Source: Sialis fuliginosa
Lineage: Eukaryota; Arthropoda; Insecta; Megaloptera; Sialidae
NCBI GenBank assembly: GCA_961205875.1
Contig: OY540816.1
Location: forward strand, 23,632,701 to 23,696,700
DNA length: 64,000 bases
Reading direction: 5' to 3'
A program made the position numbers and the translations under genes. Below are positions 20,366 through 58,327 of the stretch, piece by piece; position 1 is the first letter of the stretch, and each line of letters begins with the position of its first letter. A model generated the notes under the pieces. The model did no database searches. It was not told the DNA's origin and saw nothing but the letters and a program-made list of their open reading frames with translations.

Positions 20366-23300
20366 ATGTTATATTTTCTGTTATTTATAATTGTGTTTCT
20401 TGTGTTGTATTATGCTTGGAAAAGAAGACGTTTTTATATATTGGCGTACAGGCTTCCAGGGATTTCTATGGGACATGTGTTTGAGAGAGTATTAACGAAC
20501 ATAAGAAATGAAAAAACTTTCAGTAGGTATTTTTACGTTTACTTCCGAAATTATTATTTTTTAAATCGTAATTTTGATAAAATTGAAAAATATTGGTATT
20601 TTTAGAAATTGTTTTTTGCTAACTTCAAAATGATATAACGAGACGAAACTTACTCGTACTTAACACTCGTTTCTTCTTGTCTCGTCTGCAGCCCTAGAAT
20701 TTGAAAAAAAAATTATTTTAATATCTTTTTTTTATGATTGAAATTTTAAAGATTTTTTTACTTTGATTTCAGAGTAATTCAAAAGTTGTTAATTAATAAA
20801 AATAAAAAAAAAGTACAAGACTTGTTTATTTTTTTGTGTAGAATACAAATTTTCAAAAAATATTCCGATTAAAGAAATATCCCCTCCCATCTAAATTGTA
20901 TAATTTTTGTCTGAAAATGTTTTCTCAAAAATTATTTTTTCTCAAGATATTAGCTTATACAAACCTTGAAGCTTCCGCGGTGATCTTGGCTTCTGGGTAT
21001 AAGCCACGTCGATTTAGTGCAACACTTTAAGAAGAGCTCTGAAAATGACCACTGCAATGTGTGACGAAACGTTGGCCGATAACACGACCAAATCGACACG
21101 GCTTGTACCCAGAAGCCAAGATCCAAGATATTAGCTTGTACTAAAAAAAAAAAAAAAACTTTTATAACGAAATAATAACAAAATTGTCAATTTACTCGAA
21201 AGTCATTTTTTCTAAAAAAAAATGTGTAAGGTCAAAAATGTATTTTTTATTTTTTAGATGTGGCCTTGGATTTAGTAGATGCAATGTATCTCCACGGAAC
21301 GCCCAAAAAAATTTGGTTGGGCCCAAATATTTTTGTGTTTTTGATAAATCCAGAAGATACAAAAATTGTTTTGAATTCTTTAGACTGCCTAGAAAAATCA
21401 CCAGCACTTTACGGAACTTTAAAAGATATGCTTTGTAATTCTCTGCTAGTGAAACCAGGTATACTCAATAATAAAAATATAAAAAAACTTTTTTTTTAAA
21501 ATCGACTAAAATGCTGAAAATAAAATTCAGTTAGACTCTTTTCGTACTAAATAAATATTGCATTTAAAAAAAAGTTGTATGAACAAAATCAACTTTTTTT
21601 AAAGGCAATATTTAATACGAAAAAAGTCTAACTGAATTTTATTTTCAGCTTTTTAGTCGGTTTTTAAAAGGTAAATTGTTTTAAAAAAAAATTTTTTTTA
21701 TACAGAACATTTATGGAAGGTGCAACGAAAAAAATTTATTCCATTTTTTTCTAAATTCGCATGTGATAATTATGTGGGAACATTCAACAAGATCAGTGAT
21801 AATTTTCTGGAAAAATTAGGGAAGAAAATTGAATGGTCGGAAGACGATTTGGATATATTTAGTTTGGATATTGCATTAGATTCTTTTATAAGTAAGAGTT
21901 CTTTATACAGTAAAAGCTCTTTATTCGTGGGGTATATGTTCCATAAATATGCCGCGAATACAGAAACCGTGAATACGGAATGGTAATTTATATGGGATTA
22001 TAGGGGATACGTTCCTAGGTGACAAAATAAATAAACAAATACAATATAAAAAAATCAATTTAATTGAAGTTTTTGACCATACTGTTTAATTATTATCTTC
22101 AGGCTTAGGCAATGGTTTAAAGAATTTTGTAATTTTTTCTTGCTTGGCAGTTTTTAAAAGCTCCTTCAATTCAGACTGATATTCAGCAGTGGCATTAGCA
22201 ATTTGCCTCTTAAAAATAAGACTTCGTTCCATAGACGGATCAATTTTCATAAAGAAATCACAAAGCTCATTTGCCATTCTTAAACCTTCACTAAGATTTT
22301 TCAAATTAAATGTCACGTTTCCTGATTAGATCCGCGAATAAAGAAATCTTTAGCCGCGAATATAGGAATTGGGTCGCATTTTTTTAATCCGCGAATAGTG
22401 AAAACGCGAATGAAGGAAGCGCGAATAAGGAGCTTTTACTGTATTTTTTTTTAATAAATAAAAAAGTGTTATAAAGTACTATCGATGCCTTTTTATATTT
22501 TTAGAAACATTCACTCAAACAAACGTTTTAAATTATGACGATTATAGAAGTTTTGGAAACTGCATGTTAAGGTAGGTGAACAAAAATACGACATTTTAAT
22601 TTTGCATTTATTTATTATTTTAATTTTCAGTTTCTTGGACATAGCGTTCAGTAGAATTGTAAGATTCTGGTTACTCAGTGATTTCCTGTTCCAGTTTTCA
22701 AGTATGCATAAAAAATACAAACAATGTTTAATCAACATAAGTAAAATAAATACAAAAGTAAGATAATTAATTCCAAAACTCGTTCGTTCCATTTAAAAAA
22801 ACATCGGCCAAGTAAATGCACAGTGCTTCCTCGAGCTAAATTTACCAAAGATAATTAATTATTGAACAAAAGATAAATTTCGTTAGCCGTTTAATTTTTA
22901 TACAATTTTACTAAAAAGTATTAGTTCAAAATTTTTCTTAAGACGCACCTGATTATTTTTTCGTATATTTTTAATTTTTTGACAATTTCAATCTAAATCT
23001 AAATTTATGCAAACGTCAAAAATAATATATCAAAAGTAAATATCAATTTAAAAAAAAAAACACGATTTTTTAAAATAAATTAAAATAAATCTTTGTAAGG
23101 GGATATTTTACAACAAACGTTGTAGACCCATATTATAGGAAATTTAATACTCTACAAAAAATATTCTATAAAATTTTCACGTAACATGAGATATCTTGAA
23201 AAAATAAATTAATAAACAAATTATAATATTTAGGTAATTGAAGCAAAATTCAAGGAAAGGCAAACTTCTGAAAATTCTAAAGAAAAATGTTTCTTAGACA

Positions 23301-34912: not shown

Positions 34913-34993
34913 GGCACGCGTTACAACCGGCACCTAGGGGCACAAAAAAACACCTATCTAAGGGGAGGGTACTAAAAAAATAACTATATAAGG
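34913..34993 (+). promoter_or_regulatory. Core promoter of the bHLH gene: Hairy/E(spl)-type site and TATA box
   Basis: GGCACGCG at 34913-34920 matches the class-C site (GGCACGCGMC) bound by Hairy/E(spl) repressors in proneural promoters. tatataagg at 34985-34993 is a good TATA box 37 bp before the ATG, implying a very short 5' leader. Function is inferred from the match and position only. Confidence 0.5.
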
Positions 34994-35029
34994 ACCCTTA
35001 AAAAATATTATACATTATTCCACCCAAAA

Positions 35030-35404
35030 ATGGCAACGGATAGTTTTATTTTTCATTGTTGGCAACAATCAAATTTCACTTCTTGCAACAATCAATTTTT
35101 ACAAACAAATGAAGATAATAAAGAAAATTATTTAACAGAAGACACATCGAGTTCTTCATCAAATGAATTTACGTCAGGAAAAAGCAGTCATAGAATAATA
35201 AAGAATAGTCAAGATAATATAGATAGGAGGAAAAGGTTGGCGGCAAATGCGAGAGAAAGAAGAAGAATGCAGAATTTGAATTTGGCGTTCGATAGATTGA
35301 GAAAATACTTACCAACTTTAGGGAATGAAAAACAATTGTCGAAATTTGAAACTTTGCAAATGGCGCAGAGTTATATTGGTGCATTATGTGATTTGTTAGA
35401 TTAG
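35030..35404 (+). CDS. Atonal/Amos-type proneural bHLH transcription factor
   Basis: Single-exon gene, 124 residues, start context CAAAAATGG. The N-terminal 65 residues are low complexity (Asn-, Ser-, Gln-rich). Residues 66-124 are a bHLH domain: basic region [15 protein letters not shown], helix 1 [15 protein letters not shown], a short loop, then helix 2 [21 protein letters not shown]. The NARERRRM and ETLQMAQ signatures are those of the Atonal family, which dimerise with Daughterless and bind E-boxes to select sense-organ precursors. The protein stops right after helix 2. The small size, single exon and loop LGNEKQ fit amos/cato-like genes better than atonal itself, but I do not assign a symbol. 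Likely regulated through the TATA and Hairy-type sites just upstream. Possible poly(A) signals near 35885 and 35958. It stands alone between the P450 and glucosidase arrays. Confidence 0.92.
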
Positions 35405-36422: not shown

Positions 36423-39400
36423 TTATAATTCTTTTTCAACTACACGATATTTTTTACAATTTGGAACTTTTCTAGTTTTTATAATATTCTGGTAATTGTA
36501 GAACGACTGTCTAGGAGTTCTCGTTTTTTCTTCGCTTTCAAAATCGACGTGGATTAATCCAAAACGTTCTCTGAAATAAAAAAATCTTATATATTACTGC
36601 AAAACAAAATAATTCGCAAAAACTACTTTTGTAATATTTTGCGACGCTGTAACTCGTAAATTATTAATTGTAGAGAATGACGCCAAGGAAGAAATTGTAG
36701 AGAATTCAATTCTCTACAAGATTGTCATTTAACATTTTAATGTAAAATCAATATTTTGCGAGATAATTTGCAAAAACTACTTTTTAAAAACTTTTCGGCG
36801 CTGTAACTCGTAAACTTTTGGTTGTACAGAACGACGCCTAGGGAAGAAATTGTAGAGAATTCAATTCTCTACAAGATTGTCATTTAACATTTTACTGTAA
36901 AATCAATATTTTACGAGATAATTTGCAAAAACTACTTTTTAAAAACTTTTCGGCGCTGTAACTCGTAAACTTTTGGTTGTACAGAACGACGCCTAGGGAA
37001 GAAATTGTAGAGAATTCAATTCTCTACAAGATTGTCATTTAACATTTTAATGTAAAATCAATATTTTGCGAGATAATTTGCAAAAACTACTTTTTTAAAA
37101 CTTTTCGGCGCTGTAACTCGTAAACTTTTGGTTGTACAGAACGACGCCTAGGGAAGAAATTGTAGAGAATTCAATTCTCTACAAGATTGTCATTTAACAT
37201 TTTACTGTAAAATCATTATTTTACGAGATAATTTGCAAAAACTGCTTTTTAAAAACTTTTCGGCGCTGTAACTCGTAAACTATTGGTCGTACAGAACGAC
37301 GCCTATAGAAGAAATTGTAGAGAATTTAATTCTCTACAAGATTGTCATTTAACATTTTAAATTAAAATCAATATTTTACGAGATAATTTTCAAAAACTAC
37401 TTAGCGACGATATAACTCGTAAACCAATAATAATTATATGTAGATAATGACTTACGTATATCCACTTGCCCATTCAAAGTCATCCAACAATGTCCACGCC
37501 ATGTAAGCTGTTACGTTCACTTCATCTTCTTGTATTGCTTCCAACATCGAAGTTAAATAAGTCTATAAAAAAATGCATCAAAAATATTTTCCTTCAATAA
37601 AAAATAAATCACAAAACAATCATTCATAAAATAAGAAAAGAGAGTAGATTTAATTAAATTTCATCTCGTATTACTTTAGGAAATAATAGGAAATACCTAA
37701 TTCGGCTAAAATATTTAAACCAACCGATAAATTACTTACATTGTAATAATGTACCCTCAAAGTATCATTCAAAGCATGTTCCGACATTCCGTTCTCCGTT
37801 ATAACGATCTCAGGGTCTTCATAGCGGTCTTTGATCCACTTCAACACCTTCCTCAGACCGAACGGAGTGACAGAGAGCCATGACGAGTTGGTCGCAAGCC
37901 AACCAGGATCTTTTTCCGTATTAACCCCCATATCTAGAATGTAACCTGGCTGAAATTAAAAAAAAATATATCAGTTCCAAAAAAAAAGCATCTTAGTGAA
38001 CGCGCAGATTAATAAAGATGATTGGGAAGAGGGAGGGGGGGAGCTGAAACCCCCAAAAGGGTCAAGGAGGTACAGGACACGCCAAAATACTCGGTCAACG
38101 ACGACGCAAGCTCATCATCTGAGTTTTATCTAACCTCACTGCTACTTTCGATTTGAAACGTATTCACGTCAATCCCTCGACTGTGCACCCCGTTATTGTT
38201 TGGTCGATATTTCACCCCAGTAATTGATATATTACCTGTTCAGGTAGTTCAGGATTATCTGAAACCAGTAAGGATGTGTAGAAATTCAATCCGAAAAAAT
38301 CCAAACTTCTTCTAAGTAGATTCTGCTCCTCCCACGTAAACTCGGGTAACCTGGATCGCTGGAAGCCCTGACGTTTACTCAAATATGCTATCTTGTCTTT
38401 CATAACTTGCGGGTAATCCCCGAAAAATACCGGGTCTGCAAACCAGCCGAACTAGAAACAAATAAAGTCTTTTTCCTAGAGATTTTGATGATTTTTCTTT
38501 TAAATTACCTCAAATTGTAAAGCCCTTTCTGCAGCCTCCCTATCTGGAGCACTATTTGGATCCTTGGGCTCGTACCAGTAAGTATTAATCGTTATCCCCA
38601 TCCTCCCTAAAAAACAACAAAACTTATCAAGGGAGAACAAATAAAACAAGCCGTGGGTTGAACCCTTGAGGTTCACACAACAAACTTCCCAGCATGGTAT
38701 GACTATAGATACTTGAATATTGATTATTTATTGTTTGTAATTATTTTTTTTTAATTCTGAGGGTGGTTTTCACCCCTTCAATGGCCGTTTAGGGACGTAC
38801 AAAAAAAATACTGAAATACATGTTCCATTATTTGTATTGTAGAATATTTATTCGTGTTAAGTTTCACATAAATCCGACCAAAAAAAAATTTTCATCCACC
38901 CAAACTTTTACACCCCTTTTTACCTTCGCAGGAGTCGAAATTCGAAAAAAAAATTTCCTTCAAATCATATTCAAGTCAATAGCATTTTTTATTTGCGAGA
39001 TTACGTACATACACACACACACATACATTTTTCTGAAAATAGTGTAAATATACTATAGTGACCTTGAAACACAAAAATATATTGAAATTTTTGATTTTGA
39101 TTTTCGGACCGATTACAATAACTTCCTATACGAAAGTTAATAGGAATTAGATCAATTTTGATACCCCATACCTTTCTGTTTGTCTCTAAATTCTTCATTA
39201 AACATCTTCCAAGTCTTAGCATGGGCTAGAAGAACGGTCTTAGCACAAAGATACGGACTAATGCCGGGATTTGGAATATTAGGCGCGTTGAAGCCCAATT
39301 CATAACCTCCGTAACATATCAGTTCCGGTTCGTTTATTGTGATCCAGTTTTTTACCCTATCTCCGTAATTCACTAACAGAACCCTTGCATAGTCGGTAAA

Positions 39401-40995
39401 GTAATCAGCTATTTGAGGATTCACCCAACCACCGATTTTCTAAAAAAAAACAACAAATAATCGTAGAAAAACGAATTAATATCATTTAAAATAAAATTGA
39501 AGGTGTTTTTCACCCCTTTTTACGGTTGCTTTGGCACCTATAAATAAATAAGTGTCCTTTAGATTCGATTGAACTATGAATTTAAAATTGTCAATTCGAC
39601 AACAATAGGTACAAAATTTCGAATATTTCCAAAACCCCTAAACCAATTAACACCAAAATCAATAGGTCTCGAGTACTCACTGTGACAAACATTTTCCCCC
39701 AAAAAAATTCAATTCGATGCATTTACAGACACAAACACAACTTTACATCTTGAAGGTAGTACAACCAAAATCTGCTGTTATCTCTGTAACAAATTTTCAA
39801 CGGTATCCGAACAATTTTGAATATTTTTCAATAAAAATTGGTATTAAATAAGTTGAATATACGCTTAATAAAATGTTCTTTACCCCACCCTAAAATAATT
39901 AGTTACACCTTTGAAAAAAATTTCCAAACATTGACAATTTTTTGATCCCTCCTAAATTCAATAAAATTTTAAGTTTTGTTCCCACCTGAAGCTCCAAAGG
40001 TAAGTCCCAATGGTACATGGTTATATAAGGTTCGATTCCCGCTTCTAGCAAAGCGTCTATTAGCTTGCTATAGTGAGCAATACCCGCCGGGTTGAGTTTA
40101 TTCGAATACCCAGTTGGCATGATCCTTGGCCAGGAAATGGAGAAGCGATAGACCTTCGCTCCAAGCTCCGCCTGGAGCCGCACATCCTCTAGATATTTGT
40201 GGTACGAGTCAGCCGCTGTATCTCCAGTAGAACCATCCAGGATTTCGTTGTTCCGGTTGTGAACACGATCGTCCCAAATGCTTTCACCTTTTCCTAATCA
40301 ATTATTTTTTTTATTAATTATACAAAATTTAAATTAATGTTTTTTTTTTCTGTTTTTACCATCTTCGTTCCATGCCCCCTCTGTCTGATAGGCTGCAGTG
40401 CTTGTACCAAATTTTAAATCTACAGGAAACGTGCAAGATTCTGTTTGGGAACCATCGCTTATGCTGGAAATAAAGGTATTCAACTTTTTTTGTTAGTATT
40501 TTTCAATTCAAATATAGAAAAATAATTATAATAAAAAAAATGTGTATAATAAATTAACAAGAACACGTAATACTAATCATAATTTTAATACACTACCCCC
40601 CTCCCTATTACTCATTTCAAACTAATAATAAAAATAAAATTACAAAATGCAGCAAACAACCAACTAAAATAAAATAAATAAATAAATCATATAATAACAA
40701 ATCATTATTTAAATATCCTATTAAAAATCCCCCCTCCCCCAACAACAAATATTTAAAAAAACTTTTTTATTATAAAATACTGTATCATTTTTTTAATTTT
40801 AATATCCTATTAAATAAAAACCTCCCTCAATCAAAATAAATATTTTTTAATTATAAAACACACAAAATAAATGCACCCAAGCTTTTACCCACTCCCCACT
40901 AGCCCCCTCCCCATAAAATTCAATTAAAAAACAAAAGAAAGTACTTACATTAAAATTAAAAATACTGTTGTTATAAAATGCAGCATTTGAAACAT
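36423..40995 (-). CDS. GH1 beta-glucosidase/myrosinase-like, gene A
   Basis: Secreted family-1 glycosidase, 501 residues, hydrolysing beta-glucosides with retention. Exons on the minus strand: 40995-40949, 40463-40360, 40293-39986, 39439-39172, 38606-38509, 38451-38236, 37949-37740, 37562-37456 and 36570-36423. Start MFQMLHF..., a hydrophobic signal peptide over about 20 residues (a second ATG at 40986 would also serve). Motifs: [21 protein letters not shown] with acid/base Glu190, VITENG with nucleophile Glu399, DDFEW and GYTERFG; all catalytic and glucose-binding residues are present. It is the most distant member of the array in sequence. The last intron is filled by a 155-bp satellite. 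AATAAA about 35 bp after the stop. The aglycone specificity is unknown. Confidence 0.94.
36617..37440. repeat. 155-bp tandem satellite, five units, inside GH1 gene A
   Basis: The phrase caaaaactact begins at 36617, 36771, 36926, 37081, 37236 (as caaaaactgct) and 37391, a period of 154-155 bp. Units are very similar (e.g. cggcgctgtaactcgtaaac). Each contains ttgtagagaatt-c-aattctctacaa, a 12-bp perfect dyad around one base. The array makes up nearly all of the last intron. Confidence 0.95.
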
Positions 40996-42588: not shown

Positions 42589-45500
42589 TTATGACCTTGG
42601 TACTTTTCTGGTTTCAATTATATTCTTATAATTATAGTAAGATAATCTTGGGGTTCTTTTTCTGTCTTTACTTGAGAAATCAACATGAACTAGTCCAAAT
42701 GTTTCTCTATATCGATACAAAAAAATATATAAATAAACAACATTTCTGCTTTTGATAAATACCTAAGCAACCCCGCCCCCTCAAATCTACAGCCAACCAA
42801 GAAAAAACATATTAAATAATTAATTTACTAATTTGAAAAATGTAACAAAAAAAACATAAAAAAGTAACAGTTCTATATAATAACAAAAAATTAATCTGCC
42901 CCCCTCCCTATTTTTTCTGGATGCGCCACTGTTGTTAAAAAAAGTCGCTATTGAAATGTATTATGCATTAATCAAAAAAAAGTCTGGTATAAGAAAAAAA
43001 AAATACTATCATTTGTGAAGCTCCCAAAATTATTCAAAAAAAATTTGCAATTTTTTTATGGTAGCAAAAAAAATTATTATTATATAAAGTATCAGCGATT
43101 TTTTGTATTGTTATATAAAGGCCCTTTTTTGTATAGCAGTGTAGTTTAATAAAATAAAATTACATTTACTATGGTTTTCTAAACCCTTTTTTTTAAATTA
43201 TTAATGTATATGAGATATTTCACAAAGGCTTACGTATATCCACTGATCCATTCAAAATTATCAATAAGACTCCAACAAGAATAAATGGTCACATTTACCC
43301 CATCTTCGTGAATAGCTTCCAACAAGGAGCTTAAATAACCCTAAAATATAAACACCAATATCAAAAATATTCGACCCCTTCCCTAACATAGATACAATGT
43401 TAAGTACCACTGAGTTAAAATACGTCAACGTACATTATAGTAGTGAACTTTATTCGTATCGCTCAACGCATGCTCTGACATCCCGTTCTCCATGACAACT
43501 ATTTCCGGTTTGTGGTACCGCTGGTCTATCCATTTAAGGACGTTCCTCATCGCAAAGGGTGTATCGTAATTCCAAGAACTGTTAGTTGGGGCCCAGTCAC
43601 CTATAGATTCAGCTACCCCGTGGTCTTTCATGAAATCAGGCTAGAAAGCGAATTGCATTTTAGCTAATTGCAAAAAAAATCTGCTATCCCAAATATCTGA
43701 ATAACGATTCATATTACGTGAAATTGTATCGAATCTTTTTTGTCGAGATTAAAATTTTCTATAAAAATGGTTCCAGAGTAAATTATTCCTTTACAAAGAT
43801 ATATCAGAATTTAGCACGAGGAAGCACCACTGTCCTAAATCAACCAACTTACTTCTTTCACCAGTTTAAAATCCTCAGAACACAGTCGAGACGTGTACAG
43901 ATTAAGACCAAGGTAATCGTAGGTACCTTTGACCATTATCTTCTCTTGTTCACTAAACACTGGCAATCTAGATTTAGGAAAGCCTTGGTATCTGCTCTGA
44001 GCACCCACGTACTCTATCATAGATTCGGGATAGTCTCCAAACGTTATTGGGTCGACTGTCCAACCGTACTGCAACAAAATTGAGTTCTAACCAGTTCCCT
44101 GTAGCTTAATTTTGTCCACTTACCCCAAACTCAATCCTCCTTTCAGCTGCTTTCACATCCGCAGGGTTATTGGGGTCTTTTGGCGGATACCAGTAAGTAT
44201 TAACAACCATACCTACTTTTCCTAAAGCACAGAATAAATACTTAATGAATTTCCACTGCAATTCCGCAAAAACTAAATATGGCTCTTCTTTTCTTACCGT
44301 TATATTTCGATCGATATTCTTTATCATACATTCTCCAGACTTTAGCATGCGATAGTATAATTGTATGCATGCATTGGTAGCTTCCTACCCCAGGCTTATT
44401 TATTAGTGGTGGAAAATAAGCAATTTCGTAACCAAAATAACAGAAATGATCAGGTTCGTTGAAAGTTGCCCACATATTTATTCGATCGCCGAAAGCGTCG
44501 AACAGAATCCTTGCATAGTCGAGGAAAATGTCTGATATCTTAGGATTGGTCCAGCCTCCAATTTTCTAAAAAGATTTAGATAAAACCAGAAAATATCGAT
44601 CGATATATTTAATAAATAGATTTTTTTTTCTTTCTAAAAACTATCTCCACATGACCGCAATACTTTAAATTACATTTTTATTAGATGGAACCATCTTTAA
44701 TTCAATTTCCACATAGCCTAAACTATTGTTAGGGTCTTAGGCTTTCGAACAGTGAAAGTCTCGTCAAAATCGATACGGTAGTTTTCGTATTAAGTAGAGA
44801 TAAACAAAATAGATTGTTTTTCTTAGAAAATAACGTATAGGCCAAAAAAATAATTGCTGTGTAGAAAAAAAGCCTACCTATTTGATAATAAAACTATTTT
44901 ACCGGTGTTAATTTTTTATATCCCAAGTTCATTAGTTTATTATTATCAACATGTGAACGAACACGTTACTTAGTAATTATTATATGTATTGATAGTTAAT
45001 TGTTACAAAATTGATTAATTTTTATACATTATTAATATCATAATTGCTTTCAATTGGTGATAAAGTGATAACGTTGACATTCAAGTAAAATTAATTTGCT
45101 GTTGATAGCCACGTACAGTGAAACTCGTTATAACGCCCTTGATCAAAAACTCGTTATAAACGGAATAGCGCTATAGGCGAGAAATAAATTACAAAATAAA
45201 TATTTTTCCTAAAAATATATTTGTGTGTATTTAAAATCATAATTGTATCTTTAATATACATAAATCTGAAAGTCTGTCTGTCTGTACGTTCGTTATAAAC
45301 TCGAGAACCACGTGTATTTTTTTATTCATAAATAAATAATATCCCCAACCCTCTCCAGAATATTTAGAAAAACAGAAAAATTAAATGCATTAACCTGCAA
45401 ATCTGAAGGTAAATCAAAATGATACATAGTTGCAACGGGTTCAATTCCTTCTTCGATCAATGCGTCTATTAAATCATTGTAATAATCTATCCCAGCTTGG

Positions 45501-46805
45501 TTGATGTTATCCGCGTATCCGGTAGGTAGGATCCGAGCCCAGGCTATTGAAAAACGATAAACCGAGGCTCCCAGTTCCTTCGTTAGCTTTATATCTTCGC
45601 GATACTTGTGATAGGAATCTGCAGCCACATCTGCGTTAGAATTGTCCAAGATTTGTAATCTGTTACTGTGGATATAGTCGTCCCAAATATTAGGACCTTT
45701 CCCTGGAAGAGATTCAGTGAGATTTATGTAGTTTCATCTTAAAAATTATTAAATTTATATAGATCTAGTTTTAGATTTCAAAAAAAAAATTAAGTCTCAA
45801 GAAATTTTATTAAAAAAAAAACTGCAAAATGTTTTGTTTTTTTTAATACTTGAAACATTTTTTAAGAAAAAATGTATAATATGCCATTTAATAGCAGTAG
45901 ATGTTATTAACTAACGTTAACGTGTTATTAGAAATAAATAATTTTATAATTATTTATGATAGAAAAAGAAGTACAAGAATTTCCCCTTCTTTTAAAATAT
46001 TAATTTTAATTTGTCATTTGAATTTTTTCTATTACTTACTTTTTTTCTCGAAAAGGAACACAAATCAGAACACTATTAATCTCACTCTGTTTTCCGTCTG
46101 TCTGTCTGTCACAGTAAAGTAAACTATATAAGCTAGAAATTAATTTAATACTTCAGACTTTTTTACTTACCGTCTTCGTTCCAGGCACCTTCTATTTGGT
46201 AAGCAGCCGTGCTGACACCAAATTTGAAACCTTTGGGAAATTCATAGTCTTTTTTACTGGCAGTAAATGCCAGACATTCACTGAAACTTCAATAAAACTT
46301 TAGAAGTCGGATCTCGATAAATCAATATCCGTTCGCTTCCCTTATTCAAAGTAAATATGGTTTCTCTATCGATGTTACCTAACTGTAACCTCTACAACTC
46401 GAAACCCTCTTTAAAAAAAAATAATCTAATATCGATTTTCCTTCTGATAGTATTTTATATAAAACAATTTTTAAGTCTGACATATTAACCTTACATTGTA
46501 TCACCCAAAGAATATTTAAAAAATAAAATAAAAACTATAGTGTTTTATTTTAAAAAGTGGAGGCCCCTTGTTACCCCATTTATGAACTTATTCCAAAAAG
46601 GCTACGTCGCTTTCACTTTCAACCCCCAGAGAATATATATACCAAATTTCAAGGTTCTACGATAAGTGGAAATGGTCAAAATAATACAAAATCAGTGGAA
46701 TTAAATTTAAAAAAATTGTAATTTTTCAAGAAATGTATTCCAAGCAAAATATTAAAATAAAGACTTTACTTACACGAAAATGACAAAGGCACGTACAATA
46801 TACAT
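42589..46805 (-). CDS. GH1 beta-glucosidase/myrosinase-like, gene B
   Basis: Secreted family-1 glycosidase, 487 residues. Exons: 46805-46774, 46280-46171, 45702-45395, 44565-44298, 44221-44124, 44068-43853, 43640-43434, 43340-43234 and 42706-42589. Signal peptide [19 protein letters not shown]. Motifs: [17 protein letters not shown] (Trp of YHWDLP replaced by Phe), TFNEPD with acid/base Glu187, VVMENG with nucleophile Glu395 (Thr to Met before it), DNFEW (E443, W444), then GYTETFG where ERFG is usual. Both catalytic residues are present, so it should be active, perhaps with altered specificity. It is the closest relative of gene C, with the same exon sizes and several almost identical exons, so the pair comes from a recent tandem duplication. 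Confidence 0.93.
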
Positions 46806-47230: not shown

Positions 47231-49844
47231 TTAATAAAGTGATTTAATTTTATTTAAACTTGTTATTTTTCTGGTTTCAATTATTTTCTTGTAATTATAG
47301 TAAGATAATCTTGGGGTTCTTTTTCTGTCTTTCCTCGAGAAATCAACATGAACCAGTCCAAATGCTTCTCTATATCGAAAAACAAAATACATAAATTAAT
47401 ATATAATATTTCTGCTTGTACAAAATACACAATCGTAAAAAAATAATACATAAATAAAAAATTTTTGGCTAAAAATTGAAATACCATTTTCTTCCGCTGT
47501 TACTACCATGTATAAATGCATAAGTCAATATGTTACCTCACAAACACTTACGTGTATCCGCTGGTCAACTGAAAATTATCAATGAGACTCCAACAAGAAT
47601 AAATGGTCACATTTACCCCATCTTCGTGAATAGCTTCCAGCAAGGAGCTTAAATAACCCTAAAATATAAATAGCATTATCAAAAATAATCGACCCCCCTC
47701 CCTAAAATGTTAAGAACCACTGAGTTATAATATGTCAACGTACATTATAGTAGTGCACTTTATTCGTATCATTCAACGAATGCTCTGACATCCCGTTCTC
47801 CATGACAACTATTTCCGGTTTGTGGTACCGCTGGTCTATCCACTTAAGGACGTTCCTCATCGCAAAGGGTGTAACGTAGATGAAAGAACTGTTAGTTGGG
47901 GCCCAGTCACCTATAGACTCGGCTACCCCGTGGTCTTTCATGAAATCAGGCTAAAAAACGAATTGCATTTTAGCAAATTTTGCTATTCCAAATATCATGT
48001 TACGTGAAATTGTATCAAATCTTTTTTGTAGAGATGAAAATTTTCTATAAAAACGATCATTACATCTTCTAGAGTAAATTACCCCTTTACAAAGATATAT
48101 CAGAATTTAGCACGAGGAAGCACCACTGTCCTAAATCAACTAACTTACTTCTTTCACCAATTTAAAATCCTCAGAACACAGTCGAGACGTGTACAGATTA
48201 AGACCAAGGTAATCGTAGGTACCTTTGACCATTATCTTCTCTTGTTCACTAAACACTGGCAATCTAGATTTAGGAAAGCCTTGGTATCTGCTCTGAGCAC
48301 CCACGTACTCTATCATAGATTCGGGATAGTCTCCAAACGTTATTGGGTCGACTGTCCAAGCGTACTGCAACAAAATTGAGTTCTAACCAGTTTCCTGTAG
48401 CTTAATTTTTTCATCTTACCCTAAACTCCATCCTTCTTTCAGCTGCTTTTACATCAGCAGGGTTATTGGGGTCTTTTGGTGCGTACCAATGGCTATAGAC
48501 AACCATACCCACTTTCCCTATCACACAAATTAAATATTGAATAAAGTGCTCCTTAAAAAAATTATTTCAGGGATGATAAAATTTTTTTAGAATTTTCATA
48601 CCGTTATATTTCGAACGATATTCATTATCATACATTCTCCAGACTTTAGCATGTGATAGTATAACTGTATGTACACACTGATAGCTTCCTACCCCAGAGT
48701 TGTTTATTAGGGGTGGAAAATTAGCAATATCGTAACCAAAATAACAGAACACTTCAGGTTGGTTGAAAGTTGTCCACATATTTATTCGATCACCGAAAGC
48801 GTCGAACAGAACCCTTGCATAGTCGAGGAAAATGTCTGATAAATTAGGATTGATCCAACCTCCAATTTTCTGAAAAGATTTAGATAAAACTGCAGTAACG
48901 TTTCTATAAAAAGTTATTTATAATATGTAATTCTATATTTAGAAAAGCAAAAATGTATTAACCTGCAATTCTGAAGGCAAATCAAAATGATACATAGTTG
49001 CGACGGGTTCAATCCCTTCTTCGATCAATGCGTCTATTAAATCATTGTAATAATCTATCCCAGCTTGGTTGATGTTATCCGCGTATCCGGTAGGTAGGAT
49101 CCGAGCCCAGGCTATTGAAAAACGATAAACCGAGGCTCCCAGTTCCTTCGTTAGCTTTATATCTTCGCGATACTTGTGATAGGAATCTGCAGCGACATCT
49201 GCGTTAGAATTGTCCACGATTTTTAGTCTGTTACTGTGGATATCGTCATCCCAAATATTAGGACCTTTTCCTGGAAGATTCAATGAGATTTATTGTTTTT
49301 TCTTTTCATAACTTACACATTTTTAGATTTAACAAGATCTAGATTAGAACACCTATTTTTTTACCTAATAAATTTTCGGGATACGAAGCTATCTCACTGT
49401 GAAATTTTATCAAGACCTTTTTCAGTGAAAAGGTAACAAACAGACAGATAGACAAACATTAATATGCAAGACATTTTTTTATACTTACCGTCTTCGTTCC
49501 AGGCACCTTCTATTTGGAAAGCAGCCGTGCTGACACCAAATTTGAAACCTTCAGGAAATTCATAGTCTTGTTTACTGGCAGTAAACGCCAGACACTGGCT
49601 GAAACTTGAATCATAATAAACTAGCTTAGAAGTTATATAAAAGTGGGAGATGCATTTAAATAACGAAAATAAACTTTTGGCCAGCACAAGACTTTTTTAT
49701 ACGTCATTTGTAGAATTTTTGTTTGGAATAGTACAAAATCGTTTTTTTTTTTGTAATTTTTTTACAAATGTATTCGAAGCAAAATAGTAAAATAAAGATT
49801 AAATTTACTTACACGAAAATGACAATGACACGTTCAATATACAT
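47231..49844 (-). CDS. GH1 family protein, gene C, acid/base Glu replaced by Gln
   Basis: Secreted family-1 protein, 494 residues. Exons: 49844-49813, 49598-49489, 49270-48963, 48869-48602, 48517-48420, 48364-48149, 47950-47744, 47658-47552 and 47369-47231. Signal peptide [19 protein letters not shown]. The frame is intact and all splice sites are good. Odd points: TFNQPE (Gln187 instead of the acid/base Glu), AAFQIEG (Tyr to Phe), YHFDLP, NFQL at 442-445 instead of NFEW (the glucose O4/O6-binding Glu becomes Gln, Trp becomes Leu), and GYTEAFG. The nucleophile Glu395 in VVMENG is kept. In plant myrosinases the same Glu-to-Gln change removes O-glucosidase activity while glucosinolate hydrolysis continues with ascorbate as base. 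Gene C may thus be a thioglucosidase, a transferase or a pseudoenzyme; which one is open. Confidence 0.92.
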
Positions 49845-50622: not shown

Positions 50623-53600
50623 TCAGTTTTGTATAACTTCATAGTTATTAAACAAAATATCGTTTTCATCTTCAAATTCTAAATTTGTCACTTGCCTCGT
50701 TTCTATAATTTTTTTATAATTATAAAAAGACGCCCTTGGGGTCCTTGTTTTGTTTGGGCTTTTAAAATCAACGTGGACAAGTCCAAATCTTTCTCTAAAA
50801 ATAATCAAGGGATAAAAATATTTCTAGAAAAAAAATTACTAATAGAAAATTGAGTGCTCTACAAAAAAGGTTCTATACAATTTTCACGTAACATGCGTCA
50901 TTCTTGAGAAATTTTGAAAAAACAGAAGCAACTAAAAAAATATCGACAAATTTTTATTACTTACGTAAATCCGACCATCCATTCAAAGTTATCCATCAAC
51001 GTCCAAGCAGTATACGACGTAACATTTACCTTATCGATGTGTATCGACTCTAACAGAGCTGTCAAATACCCCTACAATGAATCAAATACTTATCAAGGTT
51101 CGTATCTATGATGGAAGTTTCGCGTTTCCACACCAGATGGCAGCACACGTATACTTTCCAAGTTACGAGATCTAATATACACATTACACATACTCACATT
51201 GTAGTACTTTATTTTGTCGGTATCGTTCATAGCGTGTTCAGACATTCCATTTTCCGTGACGATCACTTCCGGTTTGTTATACCGGATGTCGATGGTTTTC
51301 AGGATATTTCTGAGCGCAAAGGGGGTTATGTATAACCAGGAAGAATTCGTACGCGGCCAGTTTGTTCCTGGTTGTTCCCGAACTCCGTGATCTGTGTTGA
51401 CAGATGGCTAGAAAAACATTCCCAAAAATTGACAATTTTTTTACCCATTTCCCCTAAACCCCTTTTTAATGTAAAATCTATCTATCTACAAAATTTTGTT
51501 TTTATTTTAAATACATACAGTATTAGATAATTTAAAATTATCCGAACACAATCTTGCCGTATAAGAATTAAGTCCTATATAATCCAAAGTCCCCTTGATT
51601 AAATTCTTCTCTTCCGGAGTAAAAACCGGAAGTCTCGACCTTGCAAAACCTTGATGCTTGCTCTGTAGAGCAATGTTCTTCTTCATACTCTCCGGGTAGT
51701 CGCCGAAGTGCAAGGGATCGACCCACCAACCAAACTAGCGCAAAAAGGGTAAATTCAGAAAACTTTGAAAATTTGAAAATAATTATAATAATACCAGAAA
51801 TTCGAACCTCCGGGTTGCTGCTTCTATATCAGAAGAATTATTACTATTCTTTGGTCCAAACCAGTGAGAATTGAGTGCCATGCTGAGCTTACCTGAACAA
51901 AATTAATAACTTTATTTATTTTTGTCCGACTGTCTGTCTTCAATTTTTCTATATATATGCATATGGGGTATCAAAATACGCGTCTTGTTGAGGAGGTTTC
52001 AAAAATATATACCCTAAAAAAAATTAAAAACTAAGTACATTTTTCCACGCTTAAAAAACTGATAAAACTTATGAAAACAGAAAAAATAAATATTTTCATT
52101 CATATTGGTGCGTACGAGGAACACTTTACTACCTTTATTTGAGTTTGAGATAAACTATAGATAACTATCATTTATGAAAACGGGCATTAAAGGTAAGGTA
52201 TTAAATTTTTGCTTCCTTTTATTAATAAAATCCACTGTACCATGTTGTTTGTGTCGATATTCTTTATTGTACATCCTCCAGACTCTAGCGTGAGCCAGGA
52301 TGAGAGTGTGCCCACATAAGTACCCGCCTATCCCCGGGTTACTAATTAGGGGGGCCTTGGTAGCCGTGTCGTAACCGTTCAGACAAATCTGTTCTGGTTC
52401 GTTTATAGTCGTCCATATTTTAACCCTATCTCCGTATGTCTCGAATAATATTCTTGCGTAATCGAGGAAAATATCTGCCAAGTTGGGGTTCACCCAACCA
52501 CCGATTTTCTAAAAAAAAATATTTTTTAACATTTCCAAATATAAAAAAAACACAGTTAAAATTCTGATTTTTCTAAAAAAATACGTTATTTGTTTATCAA
52601 TTGTTTCCCATAAAACATTCAAAAAAACCCAAATTGAGTCTTTCCTATGATTGAACTATAAACAGAAGTCTTACCTTGTAAAAAATAACTTTTTTTTTAT
52701 TAAATACGAATTTTTTTTTTTTAAATATTAACCTCTCACATACCTGAAGATTCAACGGTAAATCCCAATGGTACATCGTTACAGAGGGCTCTATCCCCTC
52801 TTTAAGAAGAGCGTCTATGAGATCGTTGTAATACTTGATCCCAGCGGGGTTAACCTTGTTAGAGTATCCTGTAGGAAGGATACGGGGCCAGGATATAGAG
52901 AACCTGTACGTCTCAGCTCCTAAGATCTTCATCAGCTCTATGTCCTCCATATACCGATGGTACGAATCGCATGCCACGTCTCCGTTAGAACGATCCTTAA
53001 TCTGATTTTGATGATGGTGGGTTAAATCATCCCATATACTTTCTCCTTTTCCTGTATATATATTTTTATTTATTGTCTATCTTTTTTTAGTATTAAAATT
53101 GTGTATTAAGAATCTTTTAAATATTAACAACTAGATGTTACCCGCGATTTCGTTCGCGTGGAATTTAGGTTAGGTGGAGCAGTTAAACAGAAAAACAGGC
53201 GATTTTTTTTCTGAAGTCTTCATTCACGGCATTAAATAGTACTGTATTTTCTCTTTAATATCATAATAATAAAAAAAATATAAAAGTGCAAATTTGACAA
53301 AAATATAACAAAAATTTTAAACTAGTGTATCTTGGCGAAAAAAAATCGTACAGTGAATTGTAAAAAATCATTTTAAAAGGGAAATATAGTTCTATTCAAT
53401 TTCATGGACATCTTTAGAAAAAAATTAAATATAGCCTTTTTAGCAGTTGTAAAAAAACTATATTTGTTAACGACCCTCAATTTTTTAAATATGCGTAATT
53501 TAAAAATTGATTATATAATAAAATTTACCATATTTATTCCAGGCTCCTTCTATCTGATAAGCAGCTGTACTAACTCCAAGTTTAAAATTAGCAGGAAATG

Positions 53601-54519: not shown

Positions 54520-58327
<3,808 letters not shown>

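Follow-up and report, generated by a model that had tools for sequence, protein, structure and literature searches.

One of the five GH1 genes encoded in the window (the whole 64-kb stretch of Sialis fuliginosa DNA analysed here), designated gene C, carries a glutamine where the catalytic acid/base glutamate is expected, and the question raised by this locus is whether its product is still an enzyme, is being lost, or is kept for a purpose other than catalysis. The five genes were modelled by a purpose-written protein-to-genome alignment with gene D as the query, and every modelled intron was checked for GT...AG. According to the spliced alignment and a frame check, gene C (47231..49844, minus strand) has nine exons (49844-49813, 49598-49489, 49270-48963, 48869-48602, 48517-48420, 48364-48149, 47950-47744, 47658-47552 and 47369-47231) and encodes a protein of 494 aa, which belongs to GH1 (Pfam PF00232, E 2.4e-143, profile positions 4-452 of 453). 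The splice dinucleotides of its eight modelled introns are all intact and no internal stop is present, as the initial annotation had stated; indeed, all five GH1 models of the window are open, with a single, terminal stop each. The stretch formed by the first exon (49844-49813) and the start of intron 1 (49789..49844, minus strand) encodes a hydrophobic N-terminus. This N-terminus resembles the signal peptide proposed earlier, a likeness judged by eye only, and the protein is apparently secreted. An AlphaFold model built on a five-row alignment (mean pLDDT 54.6, pTM 0.65) was too poor to use.

The substitution itself is real in this sequence. Codon 187 of gene C, the GH1 acid/base position (E187 in the Spodoptera beta-glucosidase Sfβgly), is CAA (48759..48761, read from 48761 to 48759 on the minus strand) in the context ATG-TGG-ACA-ACT-TTC-AAC-CAA-CCT (MWTTFNQP), so that the usual NEP is replaced by NQP within TFNQPE. 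The four neighbours (genes A, B, D and E) all have GAA at this codon, in agreement with the initial annotation, and the nucleophile of the ENG motif is likewise intact in gene C (codon 395, GAG, Glu, 47798..47800, read from 47800 to 47798 on the minus strand; E399 in Sfβgly). Gene C therefore encodes a GH1 domain that is devoid of one catalytic glutamate and has an intact reading frame, the combination that defines a GH1 pseudoenzyme. A wrong frame or exon was rejected as far as DNA allows, exon 4 measuring 268 nt and exon 8 measuring 107 nt in all five genes. Base errors are a less likely origin of the changes in gene C, as three separate wrong sites (in exons 4, 7 and 8) would be needed.

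The other GH1 genes of the window are all encoded on the minus strand: gene A (36423..40429), gene B (42589..46805), gene D (50623..53598) and gene E (54520..58182). The first exon is not included in the models of genes A, D and E, and the glycone and catalytic residues of these three genes are canonical. Gene B (487 aa, nine exons) is the nearest paralogue of gene C, with 90% amino-acid identity. A PF00232 profile search of the species' own assembly (392 Mb, 20 contigs), in which all 35 candidates were scored, returned 37 exon-level matches, counts that are lower bounds; apart from the five genes of the window, these matches belong to a single additional gene, located on another contig (C6:22489739-22485857). 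This sixth gene differs in exon layout from the window genes and has a canonical active site, with HWDLP, NEP, TENG, NFEW and the aglycone tryptophan all present. Glutamine at the acid/base position is thus found in one of at least six GH1 genes of this genome. Elsewhere, one EcR exon had its best match in PDB 4ozt (a louse protein; 68 of 74 residues identical), ahead of 2nxx (a flour beetle protein; 60 of 74), and the USP exon matched RXR-like proteins, which points to an insect outside the fast-evolving Diptera-Lepidoptera type. The last intron of gene A contains an array (36609-37402) in which a 155-base unit occurs about five times.

An intact nucleophile does not imply an intact active site as a whole. 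The residues compared here are those given in published work on Sfβgly, namely the glycone residues Q39, H142, N186, W444, E451 and W452, the aglycone residues E190, E194, K201, W371 and M453, and catalytic residues that include R97, E187 and Y331; with the nucleophile E399, added in this study, they form a set of 15 active-site residues. The equivalent of W371 was placed by its equal spacing of 28 residues to the nucleophile in the Neotermes enzyme and in gene C. Gene C has Q, H, N, W, Q and L at the glycone sites, V, F, F, F and T at the aglycone sites, and R, Q, Y and E at R97, E187, Y331 and E399, in the orders given above, so that four of the six glycone residues of an active GH1 beta-glucosidase are kept. 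In detail, (i) codons 443-444 are CAG TTG (Gln-Leu, 47566..47571, minus strand), which turns the sugar-binding NFEW of genes A, B, D and E into NFQL (E451Q and W452L in Sfβgly numbering), (ii) codon 367 is TTC (Phe, 47882..47884, minus strand) at the aglycone site W371, where genes A, B, D and E have Trp, (iii) codon 143 is TTT (Phe, 48984..48986, minus strand) at W143, turning HWDLP into HFDLP, and (iv) codon 394, just before the nucleophile, is ATG (Met, 47801..47803, minus strand) at T398, turning VTENG into VMENG. The last two changes are shared with gene B, which keeps the acid/base glutamate and NFEW, whereas the equivalents of E187, E451, W452 and W371 are lost in gene C alone and present in genes A, B, D and E. 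The initial annotation had thus recognised the glutamine at the acid/base position and overlooked NFQL, VMENG, HFDLP and the aglycone Trp-to-Phe change.

The probable consequences of these changes can be read from published Sfβgly mutants. In the published mutant table, W452A and T398A are reported as inactive, and the relative kcat/Km is 0.00044 (0.044%) for E187D, 0.00036 for W143A and 0.0404 for E451Q, which keeps about 4%. Most of the mutants described there are to Ala, and no published test of W452L or T398M was found in the literature searched. Phenylalanine at the position of W143 is common in GH1 (43%), and the survey of one paper gives Ser as the equivalent of E451 in 61% of the members covered and reports W452 as conserved. 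On these values W143F is judged to be an ordinary replacement and E451Q a mild one, the severe changes being E187Q and W452L; the effect of T398M is uncertain, since it is also present in gene B. With the proton donor lost and the sugar-binding floor altered, the gene C protein is not expected to turn over ordinary O-glucosides and is predicted to lack this hydrolytic activity. As for gene B, it has Met instead of Thr398 at a site where Ala inactivates Sfβgly, its glycone and catalytic residues being otherwise all present, and it may itself be impaired.

The reading favoured here, with a probability of about 0.6, is that gene C would derive from the tandem duplication of a GH1 beta-glucosidase gene, with a recent divergence, and would have become a secreted pseudoenzyme, following a klotho-like logic and probably kept for binding. 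Among the options of the initial annotation was a pseudoenzyme retained for binding, and it is the occurrence of several pocket losses beyond Gln187 that favours this option. Indeed, NQP, NFQL, F367, VMENG and HFDLP are found together in a single intact model, and the inactivity or very low efficiency of the Sfβgly mutants at E187, T398 and W452, together with the reduced efficiency of E451Q, is consistent with a loss of catalysis. The residual activity of E451Q taken alone, the predominance of Ala in the published mutants and the frequency of Phe at W143 argue in the other direction.

A convergence on plant myrosinases had been proposed for gene C. In the published descriptions available, the classical (QE-type) plant myrosinases (Sinapis alba, Arabidopsis TGG) combine a Gln at the acid/base position with a Glu nucleophile, exactly as gene C does, while a Glu occupies the acid/base position in plant myrosinases of the EE-type and in those known from insects; the earlier statement that plant myrosinases have Gln therefore applies to the classical ones and not to the EE-type, and that the aphid myrosinase keeps Glu agrees with the two catalytic glutamates of the known insect enzymes. 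It follows that Gln is not required for myrosinase activity. Under this hypothesis, gene C would cleave glucosinolates by the plant mechanism, Gln187 being assisted by ascorbate or another external base. The QE signature speaks for it, as does the fact that plant myrosinase also appears to have a residue other than Trp at the position of W452. The plant enzyme is indeed described with Glu464 and Phe465, and a cabbage model with Glu482 and Phe483; the former pair would correspond to E451 and W452 of Sfβgly, and the latter was matched to it by number offset. However, the neighbouring residues do not fit. The published table gives S190, R194 and D201 for the Sinapis alba enzyme, whereas gene C has V190, F194, F201, Q443 and L444: the aglycone Ser190 and Arg194 are replaced by Val and Phe, and the glycone Glu that classical plant myrosinases keep is Gln443, if the number offset places Glu464 correctly. 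Moreover, Phe194 and Phe201 are common to genes B and C, so that no basic residue was gained in gene C at these positions, and known insect myrosinases of the aphid and flea beetle type have two catalytic glutamates where gene C has one. Convergence on the plant enzyme is thus unsupported, the glycone Glu and Trp being lost; it was rejected as the leading reading because the glycone Glu and the equivalents of Arg194 and Ser190 are missing, and is considered very improbable. A Glu-to-Gln change alone is an unsafe mark of a myrosinase, and it is the neighbouring pocket residues that decide.

Gene C could also encode an enzyme of another kind, acting on another glycone or transferring a sugar instead of hydrolysing, with an activated donor loading the intact nucleophile as in laboratory thioglycoligases; Gln at the acid/base position would slow hydrolysis. 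The nucleophile and the equivalents of His142, Asn186, Gln39, Arg97, Tyr331 and Trp444 of Sfβgly are all kept in gene C, which speaks for this possibility. GH1 members with Ser at the position of E451 are largely 6-phospho-glycosidases. The high proportion of Ser at this position in the published survey also indicates that the glycone Glu is dispensable in working enzymes with other glycones. The loss of W452, conserved in that survey and inactivating when replaced by Ala, and the T398M change stand against this possibility. The transglycosidase suggested in the initial annotation retains its intact nucleophile, but transglycosylation is unlikely because of the changes at the glycone site, and an enzymatic role of any such kind is regarded as quite unlikely.

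The distribution of the differences between genes B and C supports instead the pseudoenzyme kept for binding. Among 487 aligned codons, the two proteins differ at 48 amino acids, six of which fall within the 15-residue active-site set (positions 187, 190, 367, 443, 444 and 445 in gene C numbering). This enrichment has a P of 0.0017 over the 487 codons, 0.0007 in a core of 459 codons and 0.0010 outside exons 3 and 6, and the 38 codons at which B and C differ only silently all lie outside the set. As a control, the six pairs that can be formed among genes A, B, D and E differ within the set only at the aglycone positions 190, 194, 201 and 453 (at four of them in five pairs and at one in the D-E pair), while residues 187, 367, 443 and 444 are identical in all six pairs. 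Since the aglycone positions vary among the other paralogues, the differences at 190 and 445 are not special, and those at 187, 367, 443 and 444 are. Two of the six set differences thus lie at freely varying aglycone positions, which weakens the argument, and with the glycone and catalytic residues alone (3 of 10 differing between B and C) P is only 0.045. When the differences were polarised, 15 were assigned to C and 10 to B, 23 of the 48 being unassignable, in a procedure that favours conserved sites; four of the 15 changes on the C side and none of the 10 on the B side fall in the active-site set.

A concentration of changes in the pocket is not what a decaying gene would show, as a random spread is then expected. 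Recent relaxation is nevertheless the main rival to a maintained pseudoenzyme: selection on gene C would have been lost recently, the active-site changes would be early hits, and the open frame would be left over from past constraint and from conversion with gene B. At the sites where A, D and E agree, C carries 10 derived changes and B carries 3 (one-sided P 0.046, two-sided P 0.09), which speaks for this scenario. In a five-gene model, omega is 0.266 for B and C jointly against 0.078 for the background (2 x delta lnL 18.8); constraint on B and C is weaker than in the family, and some relaxation is present, a result that counts for decay and against a maintained pseudoenzyme. Furthermore, read-through and partial GH1 copies are described in the available literature on insects. 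Inactivation may also be recent, in which case constraint in the past would not establish a function today.

Several results nevertheless argue against decay. The comparison of B with C gives dN 0.045 and dS 0.172 (NG86), and a pairwise codon model over the 487 codons gives an omega of 0.302 (omega 1 rejected, p 1.2e-7), which shows constraint; outside exons 3 and 6 the value is 0.311. The exons that carry the lost residues outside the most similar tract reject an omega of 1 as well (0.253 for exons 4-5, p 1e-4; 0.319 for exons 7-9, p 0.005). Separate omegas for B and C were not used, the omega of B having reached its upper bound (20.1) as a result of silent-site saturation in the outgroups; for the same reason, the poorer fit obtained when C is set to neutral and only B is left free (2.1 log units worse than with both free, approximately p 0.04) weighs little. 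No stop and no internal indel is present in gene C, whereas a neutral simulation of 126 changes remained stop-free in 0.3% of runs and about 8.9 indels would be expected under neutrality. This last figure is rough, as it derives from 4 gap events in 328 aligned bases of introns 5-7, which belong to the region of high similarity; the count leaves out introns 1-4 and 8, which aligned at only 59-64%. The stops, frameshifts, lost splice sites and omega near 1 of a decaying pseudogene are therefore not found in gene C. An old pseudogene was rejected on the basis of the uninterrupted frame, the intact splice sites and the B-C omega, and a recent decay is considered unlikely.

Part of the similarity between B and C is probably due to gene conversion that spared the exons with the lost residues. 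Introns 5-7 of the two genes align at 86-93%, introns 1-4 and 8 at the lower values given above, and dS is 0.02 in exon 6 against 0.79 in exon 5. The longest identical runs measure 199 and 179 nt, and a run of at least 199 nt was obtained in 1 of 10,000 random placements. Intron 5, exon 6 and most of intron 6 of gene B (43653..44123, minus strand) hardly differ from the corresponding segment of gene C and form a probable conversion tract, within a wider patchy near-identity (introns 5-7 and exon 6; 43434-44123 and 47744-48419) that is likely to have the same origin. These tracts indicate that conversion with B has occurred, as the decay scenario supposes for part of the open frame.

For a pseudoenzyme maintained for binding, the following history can be proposed. 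The stem of the B/C family would first have changed beside the nucleophile (Met for Thr398), and the gene C copy would then have lost its proton donor and the sugar floor, the fold remaining under selection. The resulting protein would at most bind a ligand, in a pocket made more hydrophobic by V190, F194, F201 and F367, and could have been kept as a carrier, a decoy or a partner of an active paralogue; a binding role appears the most likely reason for its retention. A more specific version, in which selection itself rebuilt the pocket into a non-hydrolytic ligand-binding site, is put forward tentatively: gene C would then be an insect GH1 receptor or carrier that arose, like the klotho co-receptors, by first losing the acid/base Glu, but in a single-domain protein whose gene continues to exchange sequence with that of the enzymatic sister.

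This would not be the only animal GH1 domain to have had a catalytic Glu replaced. Klotho and beta-klotho (PDB 5van, 7ysu) share this feature with gene C and are kept for binding protein hormones; a review gives Asn241 and Ala889 as the replacing residues, and in printed alignments the first domain of beta-klotho has Asn at the column of Gln187 and retains ENG. Unlike gene C, that domain keeps the glycone Glu and Trp (GFEW), and the klothos have two GH1 domains in tandem where gene C has one. The best PDB match of gene C is 8in1 chain A, a two-domain protein named 'Beta-Glucosidase', whose first domain (WVTIDDP) has a residue other than Glu at the acid/base position and is thus a further non-plant GH1 domain with this feature; in the second domain the catalytic Glu is present at the corresponding column, and the nucleophile is followed by Ser-Gly. 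The whole-length phmmer matches of gene C include the Neotermes (3ahz, E 1e-133), Brevicoryne (1wcg, 6e-127) and Sfβgly (5cg0, 5e-125) enzymes, and the known insect beta-glucosidases and myrosinases have two catalytic glutamates in the published accounts available, whereas gene C is devoid of the equivalents of E187, E451, W452, W371 and T398. The open-licence literature searched yielded no insect GH1 that combines these losses. Imaginal disc growth factors (GH18) are described as secreted insect relatives of glycosidases in which the catalytic Glu was changed to Gln, activity was lost and another role was kept; they differ from gene C in fold family and in forming an ancient conserved lineage, gene C being known from one genome. 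If gene C is a maintained pseudoenzyme, it would represent a young parallel to the klotho logic, in an insect and with a single domain, and the presence of its enzymatic sister 3 kb away, with 48 of 487 residues differing, would allow the steps from glycosidase to binding protein to be traced.

Regarding the surroundings of the GH1 cluster, tRNA and Rfam scans of the 64-kb window gave no matches. A tandem P450 cluster lies beside it on the plus strand, with five exons matching PF00067 (E 1e-41 to 1e-56; 2887-27808) and a weak additional P450 match at 21675-21983. A helix-loop-helix domain (PF00010, E 1.4e-19) is also encoded on the plus strand in an open frame (34976-35401) and may resemble atonal-type factors.
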